From contig JAKLHH010000056.1 of the NCBI GenBank assembly GCA_022710245.1, positions 1 through 14,653 on the forward strand: 14,653 nt of DNA, in the 5' to 3' direction. Shown here piece after piece: positions 669 through 14,653 of this stretch (positions are counted from its first letter, which is position 1; every line of letters begins with the position of its first letter). The translations under genes and the position numbers were made by a program. The notes beneath the pieces are model-generated. The model searched no databases, was not told the origin of the DNA, and saw only the letters and a list, made by a program, of their open reading frames with translations. The stretch comes from Myxococcota bacterium (GTDB lineage: Bacteria > Myxococcota > Polyangia > GCA-2747355 > JAKLHH01).

Positions 669-846
669 GTGAAGGCCGACGCCGACTGCGCGGCGCTCAA
701 GCCGACCGTCTCCATGTACTGCTCGCCGGCCATGGGACCTGCGCGCTCGCCTGCACCAAAAGACGGGCGACTGCCCGAGCGGCTTCACCTGCGCGAACGA
801 CTCGAACGGGAAGAAGGGCTGCGCGCCGAACAGCCTGCTCAACTAG
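669..846 (+). pseudogene. Frame-broken 3' end of a cysteine-rich protein gene
   Basis: No single frame covers this stretch, but three successive frames read as one cysteine-rich C-terminus. Frame 3 gives VKADADCAALKPTVSMYCSP from 669. Frame 2 gives GTCALACTK at 734-760. Frame 1 gives GDCPSGFTCANDSNGKKGCA up to TAG at 844-846. The three breaks needed are one G missing from the GGG run at 734-736, one extra A in AAAA at 758-761 and one extra G in GGG at 765-767. All lie in homopolymer runs. The repaired C-terminus matches the style of the two lipoproteins at 6809-7897 and 8144-9148 (CPTGYTC, CPSGYNC followed by a final Cys) and the D-x-D-C-A module of the 11297 gene. No convincing start or N-terminal part is seen between 556 and 668. 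It is either a decayed gene or a gene hit by assembly indels. Its stop overlaps the convergent kinase gene by 8 bases. Confidence 0.5.
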
Positions 847-2725
847 CGCGCCCCTGGTCGCCCGCGTCGCCGCGACCCTCGACGAGCCCCCGCACCGCCT
901 CCTGCAGCTCACCGTAAGAGAACGGCTTCGCCAGGCACCGCTGCCCCTCGAGGCCGGCCAGCCGCCGCTCCATCTCGCTGCGGCTGCAGCCGCTGGTGAG
1001 GAGCACCGGGAGCCCGGGGCGCTCGGCGTGCGCCGCGCGCGCGACCGCCTCGCCGCCCTGCTCGGGCATCGCCAGATCGCAGATGATGAGCGCCAGCGCG
1101 CCGGCGCGCCGCAGGAGCGCGATCCCCTCCTCTCCGCCCGCTGCCTCGAGGACCTCGAAGCCCATCCGCCGCAGCATCAGCGCGATCACCTCGCGCACCG
1201 AGCGCTCGTCGTCGATGAGCAGCACGAGCCCGCGCCCCCGCCAGCTCTCCCGCGCCACCCGGCGCGCCGCTCGCGACGCGACCGGCCGGTGCGGCAGCCC
1301 GACCGTCACCTCGGTGCCCGCTCCTCGCCGGCTCTCGACGCGGATCAGCCCCCGGTGCTCGCTGACGATGCCGATCACCGCCGAGAGCCCGAGCCCGCGG
1401 CCGGCGAACTTGGTGGAGAAGAACGGATCGAAGATCTTCTCCAGCGTCCCCTGGTCCATGCCGCAGCCGTCGTCGGCGACCTTGAAGAAGACGTACGGGC
1501 CCTGCGGCCGATCGCTCGCCCACTGCAGCCGCGCCACGGCCGGGTCGAGCGCAGGCTCCTCGAAGGTCGTCACCCCGGTCGAGACGCGGACCTCGCCGCC
1601 GTCCTCGCCGAGCGCCTCGCCGGCGTTGATGAGGAGGTTCATCACCAGCTGGCGCAGCTGCCCCGCGTCTCCCTCGACGAGCGGCAGGTCCGGCGCGAGC
1701 TCGTAGCGGAGCCGGGCGCCCTTCGGGATCGCCGCCCCGAGGAGATCCGGGAGCTCGCGGATGAGCTGGTTGAGGTCGAGCGCGACGAGGGTGGCGGGGC
1801 AGCGCCCTGCGTAGGTGAGCATCTGCTGGCAGAGCTTCGCCGCGCGTTGCGAGCCGTCGACGATCCTCGCCAGCGCCGTCCGCTGCGGCGAGCCCTCGGG
1901 GAGCTCCAGCGCGGTGACCTCGGCGTTGCCCATGATCCCGAGGAGGAGGTTGTTGAAGTCGTGGGCGACCCCGCCGGCGAGCAGGCCGAGGCTCTCCAGC
2001 TTCTGCGCCTGGCGCATCTTCTCCTCGAGCTTGCGCCGCTCCTCCGCCTCCCCCTCGATGCGCGCCACCGCGGCCGCGAGGCGTGCGCTGAAGTCGCTGT
2101 AGAGCCCGCGCAGCTTGGAGACCATCAGCAGGTAGGGCGGCAGCACGAGCGAGAAGTAGAGGATCTGCATGACCGCGAAGAGGACCAGGCTCCCCTGCGA
2201 CGACCCGTCCAGCCCCGACCAGCTCACCTCGGTCGTCAGCGGCCAGAGGCGGAGCTGCACCAGCAGCGCACCAGCGGGATAGCCGATCGCGAAGCAGCAC
2301 GCGCAGAGCGCCGAGGCGCGAATGCTGAGGAAGAGCCCCGCCGTCATCGCGCTGAGGAGCGGCACCACCACGATGGTGCTGTGGCTGAGGCCGCTCGACA
2401 TGAGGCCGACGATCTCCACCGCGATGTCGGTGACGAAGGAGGCGAGGAGCGCGCCGCGCAGCGCGCGTGGCGAGAGCGTGCGGAGGGCCAGCTCGAGGAG
2501 CACGGTCACCAGCAGGACCACGCCGTCCAGGGCCAGCATGCTGACCACGAAGGTGGTCGAGCAGCGCCAGACCAGGCTCAGCAGCAGCAGGATGGCCACG
2601 TTGCAGGCGAGGAAGAGCCAGCGCACCCGCACCAGCAGCCGCGCCGCCGCGGGGCTGCCGGGGCGCAGCATCAGCACCTCGACGATCTCCTCGATCCTCC
2701 GCCGCAGCCCGGCGCGCTCGAGCAT
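839..2725 (-). CDS. Membrane-bound hybrid histidine kinase with C-terminal receiver domain
   Basis: The predicted protein has 628 residues from ATG at 2723-2725, preceded by GAGGAG four bases upstream. The frame stays open upstream to 3238, but that extension has no domain and crosses the divergent gene. About six hydrophobic segments lie between residues 34 and 205 (for example 41-53, 57-80, 115-135, 181-202). A charged coiled-coil-like stretch (218-245) follows. The H-box is GGVAHDFNNLLLGIMGN with phospho-accepting His255, the N-box NLLINAGEAL is at 363-372, the G1 box DDGCGMD at 418-424, the F-box IFDPFFSTK at 431-439 and the G2 box GRGLGLS at 442-448. The receiver domain (about 500-620) has the acidic pair D505/D506, phospho-accepting Asp550 and Lys600. 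The AHDFNN-type H-box is typical of hybrid kinases. No PAS, GAF or periplasmic sensor domain is visible, so the signal is probably sensed by the membrane region. The target of the receiver cannot be predicted. The gene is divergent from the 2997 gene. Confidence 0.92.
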   Translation of the reverse strand: MLERAGLRRRIEEIVEVLMLRPGSPAAARLLVRVRWLFLACNVAILLLLSLVWRCSTTFVVSMLALDGVVLLVTVLLELALRTLSPRALRGALLASFVTDIAVEIVGLMSSGLSHSTIVVVPLLSAMTAGLFLSIRASALCACCFAIGYPAGALLVQLRLWPLTTEVSWSGLDGSSQGSLVLFAVMQILYFSLVLPPYLLMVSKLRGLYSDFSARLAAAVARIEGEAEERRKLEEKMRQAQKLESLGLLAGGVAHDFNNLLLGIMGNAEVTALELPEGSPQRTALARIVDGSQRAAKLCQQMLTYAGRCPATLVALDLNQLIRELPDLLGAAIPKGARLRYELAPDLPLVEGDAGQLRQLVMNLLINAGEALGEDGGEVRVSTGVTTFEEPALDPAVARLQWASDRPQGPYVFFKVADDGCGMDQGTLEKIFDPFFSTKFAGRGLGLSAVIGIVSEHRGLIRVESRRGAGTEVTVGLPHRPVASRAARRVARESWRGRGLVLLIDDERSVREVIALMLRRMGFEVLEAAGGEEGIALLRRAGALALIICDLAMPEQGGEAVARAAHAERPGLPVLLTSGCSRSEMERRLAGLEGQRCLAKPFSYGELQEAVRGLVEGRGDAGDQGRAS

Positions 2726-2982
2726 GGTTCTCCTCGCAGGCCACGATACCAGAGGTAGCCATCTGGGGTCGCGCCCTGGTGCAGGCCTGCTCCACCGTTT
2801 TCGGAGAGGTTGAGGCCGAGGAGCCCCAGTCGTGGGCCGCTGCCCTCGACGCGCCGCCCTCGACCGCCCCGTTCGCGTGGGGGTGGTGATGTCCACTTCG
2901 CCGCGGATCTGCTGCGCTTCGCGACGGGATCCCGGGGGGAGCGGAGCCAGGCACACTTGCTGCAACCGGGGAGCGCGGTAAG

Positions 2983-2988
2983 AGGAGG
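2983..2988 (+). promoter_or_regulatory. Shine-Dalgarno site that decides the start of the 2997 gene
   Basis: AGGAGG followed by TG is a near-perfect anti-16S complement. It lies 8 bases before the TTG at 2997-2999, which is ideal spacing. The in-frame GTG at 2988-2990 overlaps this site and therefore cannot use it, so TTG is the better start. Confidence 0.65.
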
Positions 2989-2996
2989 TGCTACCC

Positions 2997-4004
2997 TTGG
3001 CCAGACTGCCCTTCCGCGCCTTGACCCTGCTCGCCCCGCTCGCGCTCGCGCTCCCCTCCCCCGCCTCCGCGGCCCGCGCGCCCCGCGCCGCGGTGAGCGT
3101 CGTGGAGGCTCCGGAGGCGCTCCGCGACCAGCTCAAGGGCCTGCGCGCCGTGGTCGAGGAGGAGCTCGAGCAGCACGAGATCAAGGTGCTCCGCAAGCCC
3201 GTGGCCCCGCAGGGGAGCGGCGTCAAGAAGCTCGGCACCTTCGCCAGGGCCAGGCGCCTCGACCGCGTCTACGACGTGCGGCTGCTCCCCGAGGGCAAGA
3301 AGGTCGTCGTGGTGCTCACCGAGCGCAAGGCGCCCGCCATGAAGAGCACCTTCTCCGCCCGCCTGGCCGCCGTGAGCGCCGAGAAGGTCAAGGCGGTGCT
3401 GCCGAAGCTCGTCGGCGCCGTGGTCGCGCGCCAGGAGCCGGAGCCCGACCCGCAGCCCGCGGCGGCCGCCGCGCCTGCCGAGCCCGTGAGCCCGGCCCCG
3501 GAGACCGCCGTCCACGCCGCGGCGCCCGCGCCCGTGCGGCGCACCGAGTGGCTGGTCGGCGCCAGCGTCGAGCTCGGCTCTTACCTCAACGCGGCGGCCG
3601 GCATCTACGGCGCCAGCGGCCGCCTCATCTACCAGCGCGGCGCGCTCGGCGTCGGGCTCGAGCTGGGGGGCGGGGGAGGCGGCGGCACCGCGTTCCACGC
3701 GGGTCTGCGCGCCGACTACCTCTTCCTTTCCTCGGGGATCTCGCCCATCGTCGGCGCCGGGCTCGGCTACCTGCTGGCCAAGGCAGCGGACAAGGCCGAG
3801 GGCAGCGGCGGCTACTTCTCGGCCAGCGTCGGCGTGGAGTACGCGCGGCTACGCCCGGTCCGCTTCCGCCTCGAGGCGGAGGTCTACCTGCCCTTCTTCG
3901 AGGCCAAGCGGAGCGAGATCCAGAGCGTCAACGGGATCGTCGACCTCACCACCATCGGCTCGTACAGCCCCGCCGCCGTGATCAAGCTGGGGTGCCTCTA
4001 CTGA
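2997..4004 (+). CDS. Exported protein with N-terminal alpha/beta domain and predicted outer-membrane beta-barrel C-terminus
   Basis: The predicted protein has 335 residues from TTG at 2997 (GTG at 2988 is the alternative). Residues 1-25 form a signal peptide ending PSPASA before ARAP. Residues 33-145 form a mixed alpha/beta region with no motif I recognise (it includes VYDVRLLPEGKKVVVVLTER). Residues 147-182 are a Pro/Ala/Glu-rich linker. Residues 184-335 show alternating hydrophobic strands with glycines and aromatic residues (WLVGASVELGSYL, RADYLFLSSGISPIVGAGLG, YFSASVGVEYARL, FRLEAEVYLPFF), with a terminal Tyr. This looks like a small outer-membrane beta-barrel. An unusual run of eight glycines (224-231) sits in a loop. 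The linker-plus-barrel layout resembles many uncharacterised myxobacterial envelope proteins. A role in anchoring or sensing is possible, but nothing in the sequence proves one. It is divergent from the histidine kinase, with a 271-base gap. Confidence 0.75.
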   Translation: MARLPFRALTLLAPLALALPSPASAARAPRAAVSVVEAPEALRDQLKGLRAVVEEELEQHEIKVLRKPVAPQGSGVKKLGTFARARRLDRVYDVRLLPEGKKVVVVLTERKAPAMKSTFSARLAAVSAEKVKAVLPKLVGAVVARQEPEPDPQPAAAAAPAEPVSPAPETAVHAAAPAPVRRTEWLVGASVELGSYLNAAAGIYGASGRLIYQRGALGVGLELGGGGGGGTAFHAGLRADYLFLSSGISPIVGAGLGYLLAKAADKAEGSGGYFSASVGVEYARLRPVRFRLEAEVYLPFFEAKRSEIQSVNGIVDLTTIGSYSPAAVIKLGCLY

Positions 4005-4200: not shown

Positions 4201-6606
4201 ATGGATGAAGTCACTGCCCCCCGCGTCCTGCCGCTCCTCCCGCTCCGGGACATCATCATCTTCCCGCACATGGTCGTCCCGCTGCTGGTCGGACGCGAGC
4301 GCTCCGTCGCCGCGCTGGAGGCGGCGATGGCCGGGGAGAAGGAGATCGTGCTCGTGGCGCAGCGGCGCGCCAAGGTCAACGAGCCCGCGCCGGCCGAGAT
4401 GTACGAGCTCGGCACCCTCGGCACCATCGTCCAGCTGCTCCGCCTCCCCGACGGCACCCTCAAGGTGCTGGTCGAGGGCAAGCGCCGCGTCCGCGTCGCC
4501 GCCTACCGCGACGAGGCCGCCTACTTCCTGGTCGAGGCCGACGAGGTGGAGCGCCCCGAGGAGCTGACGGTGGAGATCGAGGCGCTGATGCGCTCGCTCA
4601 AGACCACCTTCGAGACGTACATCAAGCTCAACAAGCGCATCCCGCGCGAGATGCTGGTCTCGGTGGAGACCATCGACGAGCCCTCGCGCCTGGCGGACAC
4701 CATCGCCTCGCACCTCCAGCTCAAGCTGGAGGACAAGCAGCTCCTGATCGAGACCATCGCCTCGCAGCCCCGGATGGAGAAGCTCTTCGAGCTGATGCAG
4801 GGCGAGATCGAGATCCTGCAGGTGGAGAAGCGCATCCGCTCGCGGGTCAAGCGCCAGATGGAGCGCTCGCAGCGCGAGTACTACTTGAACGAGCAGATGC
4901 AGGCGATCCAGAAGGAGCTCGGCGAGCGCGACGAGTTCAAGAACGAGCTCAGCGAGCTCGAGGAGAAGATCCGCTCCAAGAAGATGTCCGAGGAGGCGGT
5001 CGACAAGCTGCAGAAGGAGCTGCGCAAGCTGAAGCTGATGGCGCCGCTCTCCGCCGAGGCGACGGTGGTGCGGAACTACATCGACTGGGTGCTCGGGCTC
5101 CCCTGGGACGTCAAGACCGAGGACCAGCTCGAGGTCAAGCGCGCCGAGGAGATCCTCGAGACCGACCACTACGGCCTGCAGAAGGTCAAGGAGCGGATCC
5201 TCGAGCACCTCGCGGTGCAGTCGCTGGTCGAGAAGATGAAGGGGCCCATCCTCTGCTTCGTCGGCCCCCCCGGCGTCGGCAAGACCTCGCTCGGCCGCTC
5301 CATCGCGCGGGCGACGGGGCGCGCCTTCGTGCGGCTCTCGCTCGGCGGCGTCCGCGACGAGGCGGAGATCCGCGGCCACCGCCGCACGTACATCGGCGCG
5401 CTGCCCGGCAAGATCGTCCAGTACATGAAGAAGGCGGGCAGCAACAACCCCGTCTTCCTGCTCGACGAGGTGGACAAGATGTCCACCGACTTCCGCGGCG
5501 ACCCCTCGGCGGCGCTCCTCGAGGTGCTCGACCCCGAGCAGAACCACGCCTTCAACGACCACTACCTCGACCTCGACTACGACCTCTCCGACGTGATGTT
5601 CATCACCACGGCGAATAACCTCCACTCGATCCCGCTGCCGCTGCAGGACCGCATGGAGATCATCCGCCTCCCCGGCTACACCGAGGAGGAGAAGCTGCAG
5701 ATCGCGCGGCGCTACCTGATCCCCAAGCAGAAGGAGGCGAACGGCCTCGGCGAGTGCGAGCTCGCCGTCTCCGACAACGCCGTGACCGGCATCATCCGCG
5801 ACTACACGAAGGAGGCGGGCGTCCGCAACCTGGAGCGCGAGCTGGCCTCCATCTGCCGCAAGATCGCCAAGGACGTCGTCGGGCAGGACAAGCCGCCCTC
5901 GTTCCGCGTCTCCACCGGTCACCTCGCCAAGTACCTCGGCGTGCCCAAGTTCCACACCTCGGTGCAGGAGGAGGTGGACGGCATCGGCCTCGCCAACGGC
6001 CTGGCGGTGACCCAGCACGGCGGCGAGCTCCTCGCCACCGAGGTCGCGGTGATGCCCGGCAAGGGCAAGCTGGTCCTCACCGGCAAGCTCGGCGACGTGA
6101 TGAAGGAGTCGGCGCAGGCGGCGCTCACCTACGTGCGCTCGCGCGCGGCGAGCTTCGGCCTCGACCCGCAGTTCTACCAGAAGGTCGACATCCACGTGCA
6201 CCTGCCCGAGGGCGCCATCCCCAAGGACGGCCCCTCGGCGGGGATCACCATCGTCACCGCCATGGTCTCCGCGCTGATGCACGTCCCCGTCCGCAAGGAC
6301 GTGGCGATGACGGGCGAGATCACGCTGCGCGGCCGCGTGCTCGCCATCGGCGGGCTGAAGGAGAAGATCCTCGCGGCGAGCCGCTACGCCATCAAGCGCG
6401 TGATCATCCCGACGGAGAACGAGAAGGACCTGAAGGAGATCCCGCCCGCGCTGCTGAAGGCGGTGGAGCTCTGCGTGGTGCCGCACATGGATCAGGTGCT
6501 GCGCCTCGCCCTCAGCCTCGAGGACCCCGAGAAGTTCCTGGTCCGCCCGTCGGAGGTGATCGACTGGCGAGTCTCGAGCGACTCACCCTCCCCCTCCTCG
6601 CACTAG
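4201..6606 (+). CDS. lon: ATP-dependent serine protease Lon (La)
   Basis: The predicted protein has 801 residues, usual for bacterial Lon. It degrades misfolded and regulatory proteins in the cytoplasm as a homohexamer. The N-terminal substrate-binding domain begins with [19 protein letters not shown] (11-29). A long charged coiled-coil region (about 200-280) precedes the AAA+ module with Walker A GPPGVGKT (355-362) and Walker B VFLLDEVD (418-425). The C-terminal protease domain contains PKDGPSAG with catalytic Ser679 and GGLKEKI with catalytic Lys722. Numbered from ATG 4201, these are exactly the residue numbers of the Ser-Lys dyad known in E. coli Lon, which supports this start over the upstream TTG at 4102 (it would add 33 low-complexity residues). 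The last 13 residues are a Ser/Pro-rich tail. The Shine-Dalgarno site is weak. Myxobacteria often have two Lon proteins (vegetative LonV and developmental LonD/BsgA); which one this is cannot be decided here. Confidence 0.97.
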
Positions 6607-6669
6607 ACTCCTGTCCCCAGCACAGCCCCTGTCGACCCGCGCTCCTGCGGGCGAGGTGTCGTGATCGGT

Positions 6670-6695
6670 CACGGGTGGGAGGGGCCTCCCAGGGT
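6670..6695 (+). promoter_or_regulatory. Dyad element upstream of the first lipoprotein promoter, candidate activator site
   Basis: The core TGGGAGGGGCCTCCCA (6676-6691) is a near-perfect inverted repeat. The whole 26-base stretch matches the element at 7987-8012 at 24 positions. It sits about 88-113 bases before the predicted transcription start at 6783, the usual place for a sigma-54 enhancer-binding protein. The run TTTTT at 6695-6699 lets it also pass as a terminator for lon, and the two roles are not exclusive. The second copy lacks a T-run but keeps the sequence, which favours protein binding. Confidence 0.45.
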
Positions 6696-6756
6696 TTTTC
6701 CCCAGGGGGCGCGGTCGATCCGGCGAGGATCACTCGGGCGACGCCGCGGCCGCGGG

Positions 6757-6772
6757 TGGCACCGGCCTTGCT
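6757..6772 (+). promoter_or_regulatory. Sigma-54 (RpoN) -24/-12 promoter of the first cysteine-rich lipoprotein
   Basis: TGGCACC-GGCC-TTGCT matches the sigma-54 consensus TGGCACG-N4-TTGCW at all but one position, with the obligatory 10 bases between the GG and GC pairs. Transcription would begin near 6783, giving a 26-base leader that contains GAGGAGGA before ATG 6809. The equivalent sequence in front of the paralog at 8096-8111 is almost identical. Sigma-54 promoters need an ATP-driven enhancer-binding protein; none is encoded in this window. Confidence 0.8.
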
Positions 6773-6808
6773 CTGTCCGGGCCCACCACCGACGACGAGG
6801 AGGAGAAG

Positions 6809-7897
6809 ATGCGCTCCCTGATCAGCCTGACCCTGGGCACGCTGCTCGTCCTGGCCGGCTGCGGCAGCACCGTCTCCGACGATCCGAGCGCGGTCACGCC
6901 CAGCGCGCCCGGCGCGGCCTGCACCGACCCGGTGAAGTGCTGCACGCAGGACAAGATGATCTGCACCGGCGACCCCGACGAGGGCCTCGTCTGCCACTGC
7001 TCCGGGCTCTGGGACTGCTCCAAGAACCCCGCCAAGTGCGAGCAGGCGATGCCCACGCCGACGGGCGGCGGCACCTGGACCTGCACCTGGGCCGCGAGCA
7101 GCTACACCTGCACGTCGAAGGGCAGCAAGAGCAGCCCGCCTGGTGGCAGCGGCTGGAGCTGCAGCTGGGTCGCCGCCTCGTCGAGCTGGAGCTGCACCGC
7201 GACCTTCCCGCCGAACCCGAGCAACTCGCCCGAGGGCGGCGCCTACTGGCAGTGCTCGGTGGACAACGAGTCCGACAAGGTGATCTGCGACAAGCAGGCC
7301 TCGCCCAGCCCGACCCCGACGCCGACGCCGCAGCCGGCGGCCGACGCGGGCGTGCCGCCGACCAAGCCCGCCGCCGACGCGGGCAAGTGGCCGACCAAGC
7401 CCAGCAGCGACGCGGGCACGCCGACCAAGCCCGCCAGCGACGCGGCGCCCGCCCCCACGCCCAAGCCGGGCCAGCAGTGCGTCCCCGGCCAGAAGAAGTG
7501 GTGCGACGGTGAGATCTACTGCGGCTGGGGCCAGACCACCTGCCTCTCGACGGGCAAGTGGGACCCGAAGTGCGTGGAGCAGAACGACGGGCGCGTTCCG
7601 AACACGGCCTGCGCCTGCTACCACTACTACTTCGAGCCCTCGTGCTGCGAGACCCCGGACTGCGTGATCCCCGCAGGCCAGAACGGACAGATCTGCTCCT
7701 ACGGCTCGGGCAAGCTCTGCGACCCCTGCAACCCCAACCAGCCGAACTGCACCGAGCCGGGCGGCAAGTGCATGGTGCTGGCGGGCGGCGCCTTCTGCAC
7801 CAAGGGCTGCACCGGCATGGGCCAGGGCACCTGCCCGACCGGGTACACCTGCATGATGAGTCAGTGCGTGCCGCAGACCTGGAGTTGCCAGCCCTGA
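6809..7897 (+). CDS. Cysteine-rich secreted lipoprotein, first tandem paralog
   Basis: The predicted protein has 362 residues, with ATG at 6809 behind GAGGAGGA. A lipoprotein signal peptide ends LLVLAGC with lipidated Cys18, so the product should be membrane-anchored and extracytoplasmic. I count 35 further cysteines, which suggests a disulfide-stabilised surface protein. Modules in order are: CTDPVKCCTQDKMICTGDPD to about residue 78; two short W-x-C-x-W repeats (89-130); a Trp/Cys segment to 160; an Ala/Asp/Pro/Thr-rich linker with 11-residue repeats (162-222); a CVPGQKKWCDGEIYCGWGQT module (224-256); and a C-terminal Cys domain with CCETPDC and CPTGYTC. I do not recognise a named function. 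Similar cysteine modules are common in uncharacterised myxobacterial lipoproteins. It closely matches the next gene outside the linker and signal peptide. Expression probably depends on the sigma-54 promoter at 6757-6772. Confidence 0.9.
   Translation: MRSLISLTLGTLLVLAGCGSTVSDDPSAVTPSAPGAACTDPVKCCTQDKMICTGDPDEGLVCHCSGLWDCSKNPAKCEQAMPTPTGGGTWTCTWAASSYTCTSKGSKSSPPGGSGWSCSWVAASSSWSCTATFPPNPSNSPEGGAYWQCSVDNESDKVICDKQASPSPTPTPTPQPAADAGVPPTKPAADAGKWPTKPSSDAGTPTKPASDAAPAPTPKPGQQCVPGQKKWCDGEIYCGWGQTTCLSTGKWDPKCVEQNDGRVPNTACACYHYYFEPSCCETPDCVIPAGQNGQICSYGSGKLCDPCNPNQPNCTEPGGKCMVLAGGAFCTKGCTGMGQGTCPTGYTCMMSQCVPQTWSCQP
7343..7446 (+). repeat. 33-base tandem repeat in the linker of the first lipoprotein
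   Basis: The word GACGCGGGC recurs at 7343, 7376 and 7409, exactly 33 bases apart, and decays to GACGCGGC at 7439. The units encode variations of D-A-G-x-x-P-T-K-P-[AS]-[AS]. The paralog has no trace of this repeat and instead carries Pro-Thr repeats at the same place, so the linker changes by repeat expansion. Confidence 0.8.
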
Positions 7898-7903
7898 TCC
7901 ACC

Positions 7904-7926
7904 CACCGGGCGACGCCTCCCAGGAT
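7904..7926 (+). promoter_or_regulatory. Possible third, degenerate copy of the dyad element
   Basis: GGGCGACGCCTCCCAGG resembles the right part of the element at 7987-8012 (about 16 of 20 aligned bases). It lies 83 bases further upstream, about 196-218 bases before the predicted transcription start at 8122. Paired sites at this distance are common for enhancer-binding proteins. The match is imperfect and may be chance in GC-rich DNA. Confidence 0.25.
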
Positions 7927-7969
7927 CGCTGCGTCGCAAGCCTCTGATAAGGCGGTGGCTTGCCAGCGA
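7926..7969 (+). other. Long bulged hairpin between the tandem lipoprotein genes
   Basis: TCGCTG (7926-7931) pairs with CAGCGA (7964-7969), and GCAAGCC (7936-7942) pairs with GGCTTGC (7957-7963). This gives 13 base pairs with one 4-base bulge and a 14-base loop, 28 bases after the stop at 7897. No T-run follows, so it may be a mRNA 3'-end structure rather than a classic terminator. Confidence 0.4.
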
Positions 7970-7986
7970 GCCCGTGACAGGCCGTC

Positions 7987-8012
7987 CACGGGTGGGCGCG
8001 GCCTCCCAGGGT
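7987..8012 (+). promoter_or_regulatory. Dyad element upstream of the second lipoprotein promoter, candidate activator site
   Basis: The sequence is identical at 24 of 26 positions to the element at 6670-6695, and lies about 110-135 bases before the predicted transcription start at 8122. Its core TGGGCGCGGCCTCCCA is a weaker dyad than the first copy. No T-run follows. The surrounding DNA is much less similar between the two intergenic regions, which suggests that the element has been kept by selection. Confidence 0.45.
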
Positions 8013-8095
8013 GCCGCCCCCCTGCGGCTCGCGCCGGGTTTCCCTCCGTGGACGTGATCTCGCACGGATCGGTGTCGTACTCCGGCCTCCGGTGC

Positions 8096-8111
8096 TGGCA
8101 CCGCGCTTGCT
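8096..8111 (+). promoter_or_regulatory. Sigma-54 (RpoN) -24/-12 promoter of the second cysteine-rich lipoprotein
   Basis: TGGCACC-GCGC-TTGCT has the same match and the same 10-base GG-to-GC spacing as the copy at 6757-6772. Predicted transcription start is near 8122, with AGGAGGA at 8134-8140 and ATG at 8144. The variable N4 spacer differs (GCGC versus GGCC) while the boxes are preserved, as expected for a functional site. Confidence 0.8.
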
Positions 8112-8143
8112 CAAGCTCCGGGGTGGACAACGCAGGAGGAGCC

Positions 8144-9148
8144 ATGCACTCGCGTATCGCGCTGGGAACCTTGCTGGTGATCATGTCCGGCTGCGGCGGC
8201 GAGGCGGGCGAGGACCCGACCAGCGGCAACACCCTGACGCCGGGCGAGGCCTGCACGGACCCCGTGAAGTGCTGCACCCAGGACAAGATGGTCTGCACCG
8301 GCGACCCCGACAAGGGCCTGGTCTGCCACTGCTCCGACCTCTGGGACTGCTCGAAGAACCCGGCCAAGTGCGAGCAGACGATGCCGACGCCGACGACGCC
8401 ATCGGGCGGCGGCAGCTGGAGCTGCACCTGGGCCGCGGGCAGCTACTCCTGCACGGCCAAGGGCAGCAAGAGCGCCCCGCCGGGAGGCAGCGGCTGGAGC
8501 TGCTCCTGGGTCGCTTCCTCGTCGAGCTGGAAGTGCACCTCGACCTTCCCGCCGAACCCGAGCAACACGCCCGAGGGCGGCGCCTACTGGCAGTGCTCCG
8601 TCGACAACGAGCTCGACAAGGTGGTCTGCGACAAGAAGGGCTCCACCAACCCCAACCCGGCGCCGACTCCGACCCCGACGCCCACGCCCACGCCGACCCC
8701 GACGCCGACGCCGAAGCCCGGCGACGAGTGCGTGCCCGGCCAGAAGAAGTGGTGCGACGGCGAGATCTACTGCGGCTGGGGCCAGACCACCTGCCTGCCG
8801 AGCGGCAAGTGGGACGAGAAGTGCGTCGAGCTCACGGACGGCAGCCGGCCGAACACCCCCTGCGCCTGCCACTTCTTCTACTTCAAGGAGAAGTGCTGCG
8901 AGACCCCGGACTGCATCGTGCCGACGGGGGCGAAGACCCAGATCTGCGACTTCTCCTCGGGCACGCTCTGCTCGCCCTGCAACCCGGATCAGCCGAGCTG
9001 CAGCGAGCAGGGCGGCAAGTGCGTGGTGCTGCAGGCCACCTACGAGTCCTTCTGCAGCAAGGGGTGCAGCTCCAGCGTCCCCTGCCCCTCCGGCTACAAC
9101 TGCCAGAAGAACCAGTGCGTCCCGCAGTCGGGCACCTGCGTGCCCTGA
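8144..9148 (+). CDS. Cysteine-rich secreted lipoprotein, second tandem paralog
   Basis: The predicted protein has 334 residues from ATG 8144, behind AGGAGGA. The frame is open further left to 7955, but that part precedes the predicted transcription start. The signal peptide ends VIMSGC with lipidated Cys17; Met at position -3 of the lipobox is less usual than the Leu of the paralog. It has 35 further cysteines, the same number as the 6809 gene and in the same order: CTDPVKCC module, two W-x-C-x-W repeats (91-131), Trp/Cys segment, linker, CVPGQKKWCDGEIYCGWGQT module, then a C-terminal domain with CCETPDC and CPSGYNC. The linker is eight Pro-Thr dipeptides (residues 174-189). The function is unknown. 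The product is predicted to be a surface or periplasmic lipoprotein co-regulated with its neighbour. The PT linker may be a flexible spacer or an O-glycosylation target; this is inference. Confidence 0.9.
   Translation: MHSRIALGTLLVIMSGCGGEAGEDPTSGNTLTPGEACTDPVKCCTQDKMVCTGDPDKGLVCHCSDLWDCSKNPAKCEQTMPTPTTPSGGGSWSCTWAAGSYSCTAKGSKSAPPGGSGWSCSWVASSSSWKCTSTFPPNPSNTPEGGAYWQCSVDNELDKVVCDKKGSTNPNPAPTPTPTPTPTPTPTPTPKPGDECVPGQKKWCDGEIYCGWGQTTCLPSGKWDEKCVELTDGSRPNTPCACHFFYFKEKCCETPDCIVPTGAKTQICDFSSGTLCSPCNPDQPSCSEQGGKCVVLQATYESFCSKGCSSSVPCPSGYNCQKNQCVPQSGTCVP
8663..8710 (+). repeat. Six-base (Pro-Thr) microsatellite in the second lipoprotein
   Basis: There are eight consecutive CC[GC]-AC[TCG] codon pairs, giving (PT)8. 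Third-base differences show that it is not a fresh pure repeat, but copy number could still change by slippage in 6-base steps without breaking the frame. Confidence 0.85.
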
Positions 9149-9166
9149 CACGACAGGGGCCCCCTC

Positions 9167-9182
9167 CGGCACGAGACAGGCT
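9167..9182 (+). promoter_or_regulatory. Degenerate sigma-54-like -24/-12 site upstream of the beta-propeller gene
   Basis: CGGCACG-AGAC-AGGCT matches 9 of 12 consensus positions and keeps the essential GG and GC pairs 10 bases apart. The predicted start at about 9193 would give an essentially leaderless transcript beginning at GTG 9194. The poor TT of the -12 box and the lack of a leader keep the confidence low. Confidence 0.25.
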
Positions 9183-9193
9183 ATCCTAGTGAG

Positions 9194-10405
9194 GTGCACC
9201 TCGCAGCTGCAGCCTGCCTGCTCCTCGCCCTGAGCGCCTCCGCGTGCACCCGCCTCGGCTTCCGGCCCATCCGGGGCGATGCAGCTCCGACGGACGGAGC
9301 GGGCCTCGCGGACGCCCGGACCGACGCAGGGGGCCTCCTGGACGCCCCGACTGACCGTCCACGCCCCGAGGGCCCCGTCGTCGATCGGCTGCAGGAGCGG
9401 CCCGCCGACGCCTCCCCTGCCGATCTGGCGCCCGTCGGCCTGACGCCGCTGAGCAGCCTGAGCGCGCCGTTTCCCGGGCTCGGCCAGGCGATCGCGCAGA
9501 GCGGCGACCTGGCTGTCCTGGGCACCGCCGACGGCAGCCCCGCCGTCGGGGTGACACTGTACTCACTCGCCTCAACGGCTGCCCCGGTGAAGCTCGGGAG
9601 CTTTCGCACGGACACTGGACCGGGCGCGCTCAACGGCTGGGGCAACGACGTCCTCGGCGTCACGCTCGCGGGTGGGCGCGCCTACCTGGCGACCTACTAC
9701 GGCGGCGTGGTCGTCCTCGACCTCGACGCCACGGCCGGCACGCTCAGCTTCGCCGGTGGGCTGCACCTCGCCAAGGAGTCGTGGACCGTCGCTGTCAGCG
9801 GAGCGCGAGCCTATGTGGCCAACACCGGCGGGCTCATCGTCCTCGACGTGAGCGGCGCCCAGCCGATCCAGGTCGGGAGCCTGCCGCTGGCGGGACAGCC
9901 CCACGACGTGCAGCTCGTCGGGACCACCGCCTACCTGGCCTCGATGAGCCACTTTCAGATCGTCAGCGTCGCCAGCCCCGCGAGCCCCACGCTGCTCGGC
10001 GAGCTCGACCTCACCAGCGTGGATCCGACAGCGACCATCTACGAGGCCTGGGTCGCCGGCGCCCACGCTTACCTGGTGGCGAAGGAGAGCGCGCGGCTCC
10101 TCGTCGTCGACGTGGCGAGCCCCGCGAAGCCGGCCCTGGTCTGGAGCAGCCCGACGGGCCCCGATCAGTACCGCGCGCTCGACGGCGACAGCGCCGCGGG
10201 CCAGCTGGTGATCGGCGTCGGCACCAACGGGACGGGCAGCGGCTCGCTGCGGCTCTACGATCTGAGCACCCCGACCGCGCCGGCGCTGCGCGCCGAGGCC
10301 CAGGTGGGGAGTCCGGTCTACGAGGTCACGGTGAGCGGCGGGCGCGTCGTCGCCAGCTGCCAGGACGGCGGAGCGCGCGTGCTGCAGATCACGACGGGCC
10401 CGTAG
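9194..10405 (+). CDS. Lipoprotein with LVIVD-type beta-propeller repeats
   Basis: The predicted protein has 403 residues from GTG at 9194. A hydrophobic signal (MHLAAAACLLLALSASAC) suggests lipidation at Cys18, though the lipobox SASAC is not ideal. Residues 27-80 are an Asp/Ala/Pro/Gly-rich linker (DARTDAGG, DAPTDRPRPEG) typical of myxobacterial lipoproteins. From about residue 85 there are at least five repeats with a hydrophobic x-[IVL]-x-D/S-V core: GVVVLDLDAT, GLIVLDVSGAQP, FQIVSVASPASP, ARLLVVDVASPAKP and SLRLYDLSTPTAP. This is the pattern of LVIVD repeat beta-propellers, usually extracellular with unknown ligands. There is no clear Shine-Dalgarno site, so translation may be leaderless or the start misplaced. 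It lies 45 bases after the paralog at 8144-9148 and could be reached by read-through or by the weak -24/-12-like site at 9167-9182. It is convergent with the next gene, separated by 2 bases. Confidence 0.85.
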   Translation: MHLAAAACLLLALSASACTRLGFRPIRGDAAPTDGAGLADARTDAGGLLDAPTDRPRPEGPVVDRLQERPADASPADLAPVGLTPLSSLSAPFPGLGQAIAQSGDLAVLGTADGSPAVGVTLYSLASTAAPVKLGSFRTDTGPGALNGWGNDVLGVTLAGGRAYLATYYGGVVVLDLDATAGTLSFAGGLHLAKESWTVAVSGARAYVANTGGLIVLDVSGAQPIQVGSLPLAGQPHDVQLVGTTAYLASMSHFQIVSVASPASPTLLGELDLTSVDPTATIYEAWVAGAHAYLVAKESARLLVVDVASPAKPALVWSSPTGPDQYRALDGDSAAGQLVIGVGTNGTGSGSLRLYDLSTPTAPALRAEAQVGSPVYEVTVSGGRVVASCQDGGARVLQITTGP

Positions 10406-11296: not shown

Positions 11297-11944
11297 ATGA
11301 GCTCAAGACCATGCCTCGCACTCCCGGCGCTCCTCCTGGCCGCCTGCAGCGGCTCCTCGATCGCGGACCTGCAGGGCGGCTGGAGCGGCACCGTCACCTG
11401 CTTCGGCGACACCAGCGAGATCAGCCTCGGCATCCTGATCGAGAGCGAACACATCGGCGGCAGCGGCCAGATCCGCACCAAGGGGTCCAACGCGGACTTC
11501 GCGCTCGACGGCGGCCAGGTCGAGACCACCCGGGTCGCCGCCTGCAACGATCCCTTCTGCGACGCGGACGACGAGTGCGCCGCCAAGCTGCGCACCGTCG
11601 GGGTGCCGGGCACCTGCGTCGCCGAGGCCAAGAAGGTCTGCAAGCCCTGCTTCCAGTCGAACGACAACGGCCTCTTCGAGTGCACCGACCCCTCCTGCTC
11701 CACCGACAGCGACTGCGCCAAGAAGCTCACCAGCCGCTGCGTGCAGGGCACCTGCACGCCGTGCTACGAGGCGACGCGGTGGAAGCAGGTGACCATCACT
11801 CTGCGTGACAACAACTCCGCCATCCCGGACCCGGTGCTCACGCTCTGGCGCTACAGCGACCAGCGGATGGAGGGGACCATCACGAAGTTCTGCCCTGACG
11901 AGGACCGCCGGGTCCCCCAGGTGACCGTGGAGAAGACAAGATGA
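11297..11944 (+). CDS. Cysteine-rich lipoprotein with a split beta domain
   Basis: The predicted protein has 215 residues from ATG 11297. Its signal peptide ends LLLAAC, a classic lipobox with lipidated Cys17. Residues 25-80 look like the first strands of a small beta domain (LQGGWSGTVTCFGD, IGGSGQIRTKG, FALDGGQVETT). Two repeated cysteine modules of the form C-x-D-P-x-C-x-x-D-x-[DE]-C-A-x-K-L follow at about 83-120 and 128-156, each ending C-x-x-C-like (CKPC, CTPC). Residues 160-215 return to beta-type sequence (WKQVTITLRDN, MEGTITKFCPDE). The cysteine modules therefore seem inserted into the beta domain. The function is not recognised; the protein should be anchored outside the cytoplasm. 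It appears to be transcribed from the promoter at 11261-11288, possibly without a leader. Its stop overlaps the next start as ATGA, so the two genes are translationally coupled. Confidence 0.85.
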   Translation: MSSRPCLALPALLLAACSGSSIADLQGGWSGTVTCFGDTSEISLGILIESEHIGGSGQIRTKGSNADFALDGGQVETTRVAACNDPFCDADDECAAKLRTVGVPGTCVAEAKKVCKPCFQSNDNGLFECTDPSCSTDSDCAKKLTSRCVQGTCTPCYEATRWKQVTITLRDNNSAIPDPVLTLWRYSDQRMEGTITKFCPDEDRRVPQVTVEKTR

Positions 11945-12887: not shown

Positions 12888-14653
12888 CTACTCGAGGGTC
12901 GCCTGCGCGACCCAGCGCCGGTACGACGCCACGACCTGGGCGCCCTTCGGGAACGGCACGCCGATGAAGACCAGCGAGTTCGACGAGGAGACGTAGTCGA
13001 ACCCGCTCACGCGGCTGCGCTGCAGCGTGGTCTGGTCCACGGCGACCGCGATCGAGGCGCTGATCGGCACGTAGCGCAGGATGGCCGGGCTCGCCGCGCC
13101 GGCGATGGCGTCGATCATCGTCTGCAGGGTGGCGCCGAGGTTCTTCTGGCAGATGTCGGCGGTCATGCCCTGCGTCGCCTTCACCACCTCGAAGTAGCCG
13201 TGCGCGATCTCCATGTCGCCGAGGTCGCACTGGTTGTTGCAGATCGACCCGATCAGGTGCACGACGGCCTTCGCCTGCGCGCCCCAGGCCGCGCTCTTGC
13301 CGGTGAAGAGGTCGATCTCGGGCTTGACCAGCGCGTCGGTCTGCGTCTGCACGGCCGCCGGCAGCGCGCAGGTCTGGTAGTAGTTCATGCTGTCGCTGAT
13401 CGTGTTCTCCCAGTTCTGATCGTTCTCGTCAGTGGCGACGATGATGACCAGCGTCGCGTCGGGACGGATCTTGGCCGGGTCGTTGGCCGTGCGCGGGAGG
13501 TGGTTCTCCACCGCCTTGCGCGCGTTGAGGAGCCCGTACTCGGAGCCGCCCTCGTAGTTGGGCGGGTTGATCGCGCAGGCGGAGAAGATCGTCTGCTCGC
13601 TCGGCAGCAGGAAGCGGTCGGTGCCGCCCGGGTCGGTGACGTTGGTCGCCAGGCTGCTGCAGAACTTCCCGTTGTGCGACTTGCCGACGCTGGTCACCGC
13701 GATGCGGAAGTCGAGGCCCGAGCTCACCGCGCGCGCGAAGAAGTCCACCGCGTTCTTGGCCACGTCCTGGCGGTTGTCGGACATGGAGCCCGACTCGTCG
13801 ATCACCCAGATGATGTCCGCGACCGGGTTCGAGGTGAGCAGGAAGGGGTCGCACTCGACGGTGTCAGTGTCGGCGTCGGTGGCGAGGCCGGTGCCGTTCG
13901 AGAGGTCGTCGAGGTGGAAGCCGGTGGCGTTCTTCGGGTCGGCCGCCATCTCGGTGGTCGCCACGCCGCCCATCACCAGCAGCCGCCCGTCCGTGCGCAG
14001 CAGCGTCTGCAGACGGACGGCGTAGCCGATCGAGGAGGGGCCGAACGGCGCCGGCACCTTGCTCACCTTCTTGCCGAGGAGCGCCTCGAAGATGGCGTTG
14101 CGCACCGCGCCCGGGTTCTGCGCCACGGTGAGCTGGAGCGCGAGCTCGGTGGAGCGCACGGTGGGGTACTTGTCGTGGCTCGTCCCCGGCGTGCCCGAGG
14201 AGACCTGGCTCAGCACCGACTTGCCCGGCAGCTTGTTGAGCCGGGTGATGATCGCCTCCGACGCCTTCACCACGTCCGGGTCCGGCGTCGGCATCGAGAC
14301 GATGAAGCCGGCGACCCCCGAGGCGGGGTCGTTCAGATCGAAGCTCGCGCCCGCCTCCAGCGCCGCCGCGCCGTCGACGCCGATCTCGCCGTAGCTGGAG
14401 CTCTTCTCCAGCGCGAGCTTCCACTTGCCCAGGCTCGACTTCTGGAACTGCAGCGGCTTGAGGCCCTTGTTCGAGGTCTCGTCGGGCTTGTGGCAGATGA
14501 AGGTGGGCAGGAGGTTGTCCGCCTTGCCGCCGGGGAAGGTCACCTTCTTCTTCGGATCGGTCTCGCCGGCCGAGCAGAGGAAGTCGACGGGCGGCGTGCA
14601 CTTGCCGCCGGAGCAGGTCTGGCCCTTGCCGCAGCCGCTCGCCTCGGCCTTGC
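12888..14653 (-). CDS. von Willebrand factor A domain protein with cysteine-rich N-terminus, 5' truncated
   Basis: The frame is open to the right edge, so the start lies outside; 588 residues are visible. The internal GTG at 14541-14543 is probably not the start because the preceding 36 residues continue a cysteine module (SGCGKGQTCSGGKCTP). Residues 37-260 of the visible part form a long region without a named domain. The vWA domain follows: ADIIWVIDESGSMSDNRQDV contains the MIDAS motif D-x-S-G-S (visible residues 285-289), and LVIIVATDENDQNW holds the later metal-site Asp. Several cysteines lie in this half (SACAINPP, TCALPAA, SICNNQCD). A final beta-type region closes the protein (VPISASIAVAV). 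The metal-dependent vWA domain usually mediates protein binding or adhesion. The cysteines suggest an extracytoplasmic location. The sequence resembles large vWA proteins seen often in Myxococcota, with unknown ligand. Confidence 0.9.
   Translation of the reverse strand, partial: KAEASGCGKGQTCSGGKCTPPVDFLCSAGETDPKKKVTFPGGKADNLLPTFICHKPDETSNKGLKPLQFQKSSLGKWKLALEKSSSYGEIGVDGAAALEAGASFDLNDPASGVAGFIVSMPTPDPDVVKASEAIITRLNKLPGKSVLSQVSSGTPGTSHDKYPTVRSTELALQLTVAQNPGAVRNAIFEALLGKKVSKVPAPFGPSSIGYAVRLQTLLRTDGRLLVMGGVATTEMAADPKNATGFHLDDLSNGTGLATDADTDTVECDPFLLTSNPVADIIWVIDESGSMSDNRQDVAKNAVDFFARAVSSGLDFRIAVTSVGKSHNGKFCSSLATNVTDPGGTDRFLLPSEQTIFSACAINPPNYEGGSEYGLLNARKAVENHLPRTANDPAKIRPDATLVIIVATDENDQNWENTISDSMNYYQTCALPAAVQTQTDALVKPEIDLFTGKSAAWGAQAKAVVHLIGSICNNQCDLGDMEIAHGYFEVVKATQGMTADICQKNLGATLQTMIDAIAGAASPAILRYVPISASIAVAVDQTTLQRSRVSGFDYVSSSNSLVFIGVPFPKGAQVVASYRRWVAQATLE

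Follow-up and report, generated by a model that had tools for sequence, protein, structure and literature searches.

In Myxococcus xanthus, sigma-54 promoters follow the consensus TGGCACG-N4-TTGC(T/A), 53 enhancer-binding proteins (EBPs) are reported, and the targets of Nla28 include the putative lipoprotein gene MXAN881 as well as cell-envelope genes, according to the portion of that report available to us (PMC9765219). The locus described here has the same -24/-12 consensus as the Nla28-target promoters, which likewise include one before a putative lipoprotein gene; its genes and lineage differ, however, and a 26-bp block upstream of its promoters contains no match to the Nla28 half-site, CT(C/G)CG(C/G)AG, better than three mismatches (PMC9765219, in part). 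More broadly, sigma-54 has been proposed to control the bacterial exterior, lipoproteins included (PMC3162934, as partly available). Our findings share the theme that sigma-54 targets concern the cell exterior, but that proposal, in its accessible part, is based on conserved genetic associations with the transport and biosynthesis of surface compounds, whereas here the genes for exported proteins themselves carry the sites, and constitute the majority of those read in two related genomes (G012 and G002). A 2025 cross-phylum survey likewise reports that COGs for cell wall and secretion are enriched in Myxococcia and Polyangia, together with high EBP counts in Myxococcota; the term "signal peptide" is absent from its main text, as far as the accessible version goes (PMC12316311). 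Being COG-based, the survey would presumably overlook any family that has no COG. Among the matches listed in our literature searches, which mostly do not cover subscription journals, there was no account of this lipoprotein family or of a signal-peptide bias of Myxococcota sigma-54 promoters. As far as these searches show, the mechanism is already known, and the new elements are a family with a conserved promoter, a locus in relatives that includes an activator, and how strongly the sites favour the secretome.

The window (the whole stretch of DNA analysed, 14,653 nt) encodes a tandem pair of lipoproteins, A and B, with lon upstream and a gene for an LVIVD-repeat protein downstream. The features relevant to the argument are as follows.

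839-3238, - strand: hybrid histidine kinase (HisKA, HATPase_c, receiver domain)
6670..6695, + strand: 26-bp block, copy A, with a perfect 16-bp palindrome at 6676-6691; candidate activator site or lon terminator
6757..6772, + strand: predicted -24/-12 (sigma-54) promoter of lipoprotein A, exact TGGCACN5TTGCT, conserved in the family
6809..7897, + strand: lipoprotein A, 362 aa, predicted lipobox LAGC at 15-18 (Cys 18), 36 Cys
7987..8012, + strand: 26-bp block, copy B, an imperfect palindrome with no T-run, upstream of promoter B
8096..8111, + strand: predicted -24/-12 (sigma-54) promoter of lipoprotein B, exact TGGCACN5TTGCT, conserved in the family
8144..9148, + strand: lipoprotein B, 334 aa, predicted lipobox MSGC at 14-17 (Cys 17), 36 Cys
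9194-10405, + strand: LVIVD-repeat protein, directly 3' of lipoprotein B, without an exact TGGCACN5TTGC site of its own

Both lipoproteins possess the features of a type II signal peptide (n-region, hydrophobic stretch and lipobox cysteine), as called by a crude pattern rather than a dedicated predictor, and the lipobox cysteine and 36 cysteines in each open reading frame bear out the tandem cysteine-rich lipoproteins described in the earlier note. The two are 70% identical in alignment; the ATG of lipoprotein B (8144) is internal to a longer open frame (7955-9148). Within the limits applied, lipoprotein A had no match in Pfam or NCBIfam, and the matches of lipoprotein B were weak and far under the cut-offs. 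AlphaFold2, run on 28 sequences, gave a model with a mean pLDDT of 70 and a pTM of 0.45, with which Foldseek returned no match at E <= 0.001 and no useful fold match. Elsewhere in the window, a small protein that begins with a lipobox-like sequence and contains 16 cysteines is encoded at 11297-11944 (+), and a gene at 12891-14543 (-) has a weak von Willebrand A match, under the cut-off.

The -24/-12 sites are TGGCACCGGCCTTGCT at 6757-6772 and TGGCACCGCGCTTGCT at 8096-8111, both with GG-N10-GC spacing (GG at -25/-24 and GC at -13/-12, 10 nt apart), exactly where the earlier note had placed two TGGCACC-N4-TTGCT sites. They are the only exact matches to TGGCACN5TTGC on either strand of the window (starting at 6757 and 8096), compared with 0.015 expected per window, and two such matches occurred in 0/1000 first-order Markov shuffles. 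When two mismatches are allowed, the window contains 10 matches against 12.2 expected, which is the level of chance, and thus the exact pair alone is informative. Each site departs from the M. xanthus consensus at one base (C for G), and each scores 14.5 out of a maximum of 15.5 using hand-set weights. The -12 element lies 37 nt (lipoprotein A) and 33 nt (lipoprotein B) from the ATG; the start codons, at 6809 and 8144, are each behind AGGAGG, and transcription is predicted to start at ~6783 and ~8122. The leader of 22-26 nt claimed previously has that length when counted from the predicted transcription start to the ATG, but the Shine-Dalgarno sequence lies inside it instead of after it.

We consider, with a probability of roughly 0.8, that both sites are genuine sigma-54 promoters, that the cysteine-rich lipoprotein family is under conserved sigma-54 control, and that in this lineage there is a large sigma-54 regulon mainly for exported proteins. 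At the level of sequence, sigma-54 control is well supported by the exact pair of sites, conservation of the site in the family, the excess of sites and their bias toward exported proteins in relatives, and the activator genes that neighbour certain family members. Counting against this reading are the three family genes without a site, the missing activator-type motif in the window, the small number of family loci with an intact activator gene, the failure of a clear regulon-wide activator motif to emerge, and the weaker export bias in two further genomes, all described below.

The 26-bp block is present upstream of both promoters, with copies A and B identical at 24/26 positions (score 42; the best of 500 shuffles reached 35). 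The palindromic parts of the block begin 81 nt (A) and 103 nt (B) upstream of the -24 element, which is a common distance for enhancer sites; the block may be bound by a sigma-54 activator. The earlier note had proposed shared control of A and B, and the two matching promoters together with this common block provide sequence support for it; a co-regulated, inducible surface system is likely. Upstream of the family gene at one locus in a relative (L064), there is a block that resembles copy B (1/300 shuffles, in one of 32 tests, uncorrected). An alternative is that the block terminates transcription (of lon and lipoprotein A) instead of binding an activator, to which we assign slightly less than even odds. 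Copy A is the sole terminator-like match in 6500-9400, where 0.8 would be expected in shuffles, and its stem is followed by the T-run GGGTTTTT; against this, copy B lacks a T-run, the RNA of both copies folds no more stably than shuffles to any clear degree (z -0.26 and -1.23), and the palindromic parts are at an enhancer-like distance.

The orientation of the genes raises a second alternative, in which lipoproteins A and B are transcribed mainly from another promoter, whether by read-through from lon or from A or by means of an ECF sigma factor, and sigma-54 provides a minor conditional input. The + strand carries lon, A, B, and the gene that follows (to 10405), and there is no terminator-like match behind lipoprotein A. 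We regard this alternative as unlikely given the terminator-like hairpin and T-run that intervene between lon and promoter A (6676-6691), the lack of any sigma-70-type promoter in 6500-9400 in a scan that does not extend to ECF promoters, and the conservation of the sigma-54 site across the family.

A protein search with lipoprotein A recovered 27 proteins including A (26 others), two of which bear an organism name, one being assigned to a Deltaproteobacteria and the other to an Acidobacteriota MAG. Genome contigs yielded five family loci, spread over three MAGs that carry the name Deltaproteobacteria or Myxococcales; the family members at these loci are 30-40% identical. In a scan of 289 genomes from the same class as G002 (a MAG named Myxococcales), with five candidates scored per genome, 87 genomes matched at E <= 0.001; according to a reading of the table, matches better than 1e-20 are found in nine genomes (G001, G002, G003, G007, G012, G182, G241, G243, and G249), and the weaker matches listed cover mostly the last ~80 positions. 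Loci L001, L002, and L004 are located in G001, G002, and G003. Among 59 genomes, the Lon protein of the window is nearest to that of G002 (73%) and G012 (72%), which supports a myxobacterial-type source, probably uncultured, and suggests that the window belongs to a rather distant member of the G002/G012 neighbourhood. The number of P-P-G-G-G-x-W-x-C modules varies within the family (alignment A3, columns 85-400), with fewer in the window pair than in the longer relatives.

Of the 21 family genes compared (the two of the window and 19 from the nine genomes), 18 have a site scoring at least 12.5/15.5 within 110 nt of the start, a test that omits the truncated L076 and weak, fragmentary or C-terminal-only matches (e.g., L013, L014, and L019); the three genes without a site are L069, L078, and L079. 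Of the non-window genes, 16/19 keep the site, at 13-53 nt from the start, versus 5/104 neighbouring genes (all five exported by a crude call), a comparison that favours the family because the starts of the 19 genes were hand-set after the sites had been seen and the control genes were called automatically. A further control, in which 5/246 genes from 20 stretches of G012 carry a site, is biased low since these stretches were hand-picked away from the listed consensus sites; adding the 116 sites genome-wide brings it to an estimated ~4%, similar to 5/104. By this sequence measure, 18/21 stays far above either control even after correction. Cysteine-rich open reading frames that share only the C-terminal module with the family lacked the site in 18/18 usable loci. 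Apart from the site, the upstream regions of the family have little in common, with local similarity exceeding that of shuffles in only 5/153 pairs. We regard the conservation of the site in the family as the best argument for its being functional. The promoters of A and B, which are paralogues with 70% identity, are not independent of each other, but it is very improbable that the matching promoters are a leftover of tandem duplication (or chance) and non-functional as sigma-54 promoters, because distant members only 30-40% identical at the five contig loci also retain the site.

Assuming genuine sigma-54 promoters in the window, sigma-54 RNA polymerase would sit at the -24/-12 elements in a closed state until an activated EBP acts; the EBP, bound upstream, would open the promoter with ATP. 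We propose that both lipoproteins would consequently be made only on signal. They are presumably outer-surface proteins of a cysteine-rich family with conserved sigma-54 control, and this family would form part of a large sigma-54 regulon of the lineage that serves mainly exported proteins. Because an FHA-type activator and a matrixin-like metalloprotease adjoin the family gene in some relatives, the most likely place of action of the family is the cell surface, close to secreted enzymes that degrade proteins or attack the cell wall; it might help to digest prey or polymers, or to remodel the coat of the cell itself. The sites, their conservation, the bias toward exported proteins in relatives, and the neighbouring genes are read directly from sequence; promoter activity, the signal, the activator of the window organism, and the function of the lipoproteins are inferred.

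At two loci, L064 (G002) and L066 (G012), the family gene is near a gene for a 451-452 aa protein with the architecture of an FHA-type EBP (FHA, sigma-54 AAA+ activation domain, and Fis-type HTH); PF00498 and PF00158 are above cut-off in both, and HTH_8 is slightly under (21.1 and 20.8 of 22 bits). The two activators are 82% identical and the two lipoproteins 49% identical, so that conservation is much stronger in the activator than in its likely target. Both loci also encode an N-acetylmuramoyl-L-alanine amidase (PF01510 in L064, with the L066 counterpart assigned by resemblance of the open reading frames), a further exported protein, and a matrixin-like protein (PF00413) whose two versions share 49% identity over 214 aa. 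A matrixin-like neighbour is present in five family loci, with PF00413 above cut-off in L064, L066, L070, and L072 and below it in L074 (Pfam was applied to some loci only, and several loci are incomplete). Judged by motif, the activator gene is intact in 2/20 family loci of relatives and split in a third, L063 (G001), which also has an amidase-like open reading frame similar to those of L064 and L066. The split activator of L063 (2129-3378) is of the FHA type and occupies two overlapping frames, reflecting either sequencing error or decay.

The window pair is without activator, amidase or matrixin-like neighbours, and no activator-type motif is present in the window in any frame. The hybrid histidine kinase (839-3238) is no sigma-54 activator. 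In relation to the myxosortase-dependent metalloproteases MXAN_2677/MXAN_2678 (NF041905; on myxosortase, see PMC11980579), the matrixin-like protein of L064 matches far below the curated cut-off (E 2.9e-13; 49.5 of 250 bits) and its MYXO-CTERM matches are weak and under cut-off; by these profile scores it falls outside that family and is called matrixin-like only. No such protease adjoins the window pair.

All nine family-carrying genomes have one rpoN match each (PF04552), and they contain 36-107 matches to the sigma-54 activator domain per genome, counts that are upper limits because the loose limit also matches all 14 control genomes, archaea included. The earlier designation of the sites as sigma-54 promoters thus finds support in the family genes, in rpoN, and in the many activator-domain matches of relatives. 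Matches to the consensus YGGCAYN5TTGCW number 116 in G012 and 132 in G002, compared with 10 and 15 for the reversed motif, and the consensus totals are the two highest counts among 144 genomes of the class. From 90 loci in G012 (taken from 100 listed of the 116 sites) and 30 loci in G002 (of the 132 sites), once duplicates had been merged and sites close to an end discarded, 119 distinct sites were read (91 in G012 and 28 in G002), with a gene called for 118, the exception being one site in G012. Of these genes, 89/118 look exported (53 type I and 36 lipoprotein), as called by a simple rule based on hydrophobicity, which produces visible false positives. For G012, in which 77 of the 90 genes start within 115 nt of the site, 60/77 targets are exported versus 63/290 non-targets (Fisher p ~1e-19); ordinary genes passed through the same pipeline gave 61/239, the exported share in the two controls thus being 22-25%. 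Lipoproteins account for 22/77 targets versus 22/290 non-targets. In G002, with no baseline of its own, 24/28 site-linked genes are exported, and the bias is weaker in G001 (15/25) and G072 (12/24). The earlier note had called for a genome search for sites beside cysteine-rich lipoproteins; run on the relatives, this search revealed an association with exported proteins generally, but not with cysteine-rich lipoproteins in particular (exported proteins with at least 10 Cys make up 8/77 targets versus 12/290 in the baseline). No clear regulon-wide activator motif emerged from 101 upstream regions.

These findings are compatible with a wider model, which we advance tentatively and rate as just short of an even bet. 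Sigma-54 would serve as the secretome sigma factor of this lineage, with most consensus promoters (more than 100 per genome in G002 and G012) driving exported proteins, and dedicated activators, some of them FHA-type and therefore perhaps tied to Ser/Thr-kinase signalling, would switch separate surface modules. The lipoprotein, the matrixin-like protease, and their own FHA activator would constitute one such module, of which the window would hold a duplicated, dispersed version.

Myxobacteria possess dozens of sigma-54 activators, many without known targets. In these relatives, the abundance of consensus sites, far above the reversed-motif control and mostly before genes for exported proteins, provides a map from which target genes can be read, and the locus that combines FHA activator, lipoprotein, and matrixin gives one activator a likely target. 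One can thereby test whether sigma-54 determines the make-up of the outer surface and of the secreted enzymes in this lineage. At two site loci of G072, another genome of the class (L250 and L260), the genes behind consensus sigma-54 sites resemble by eye recA and a CarD-type regulator.
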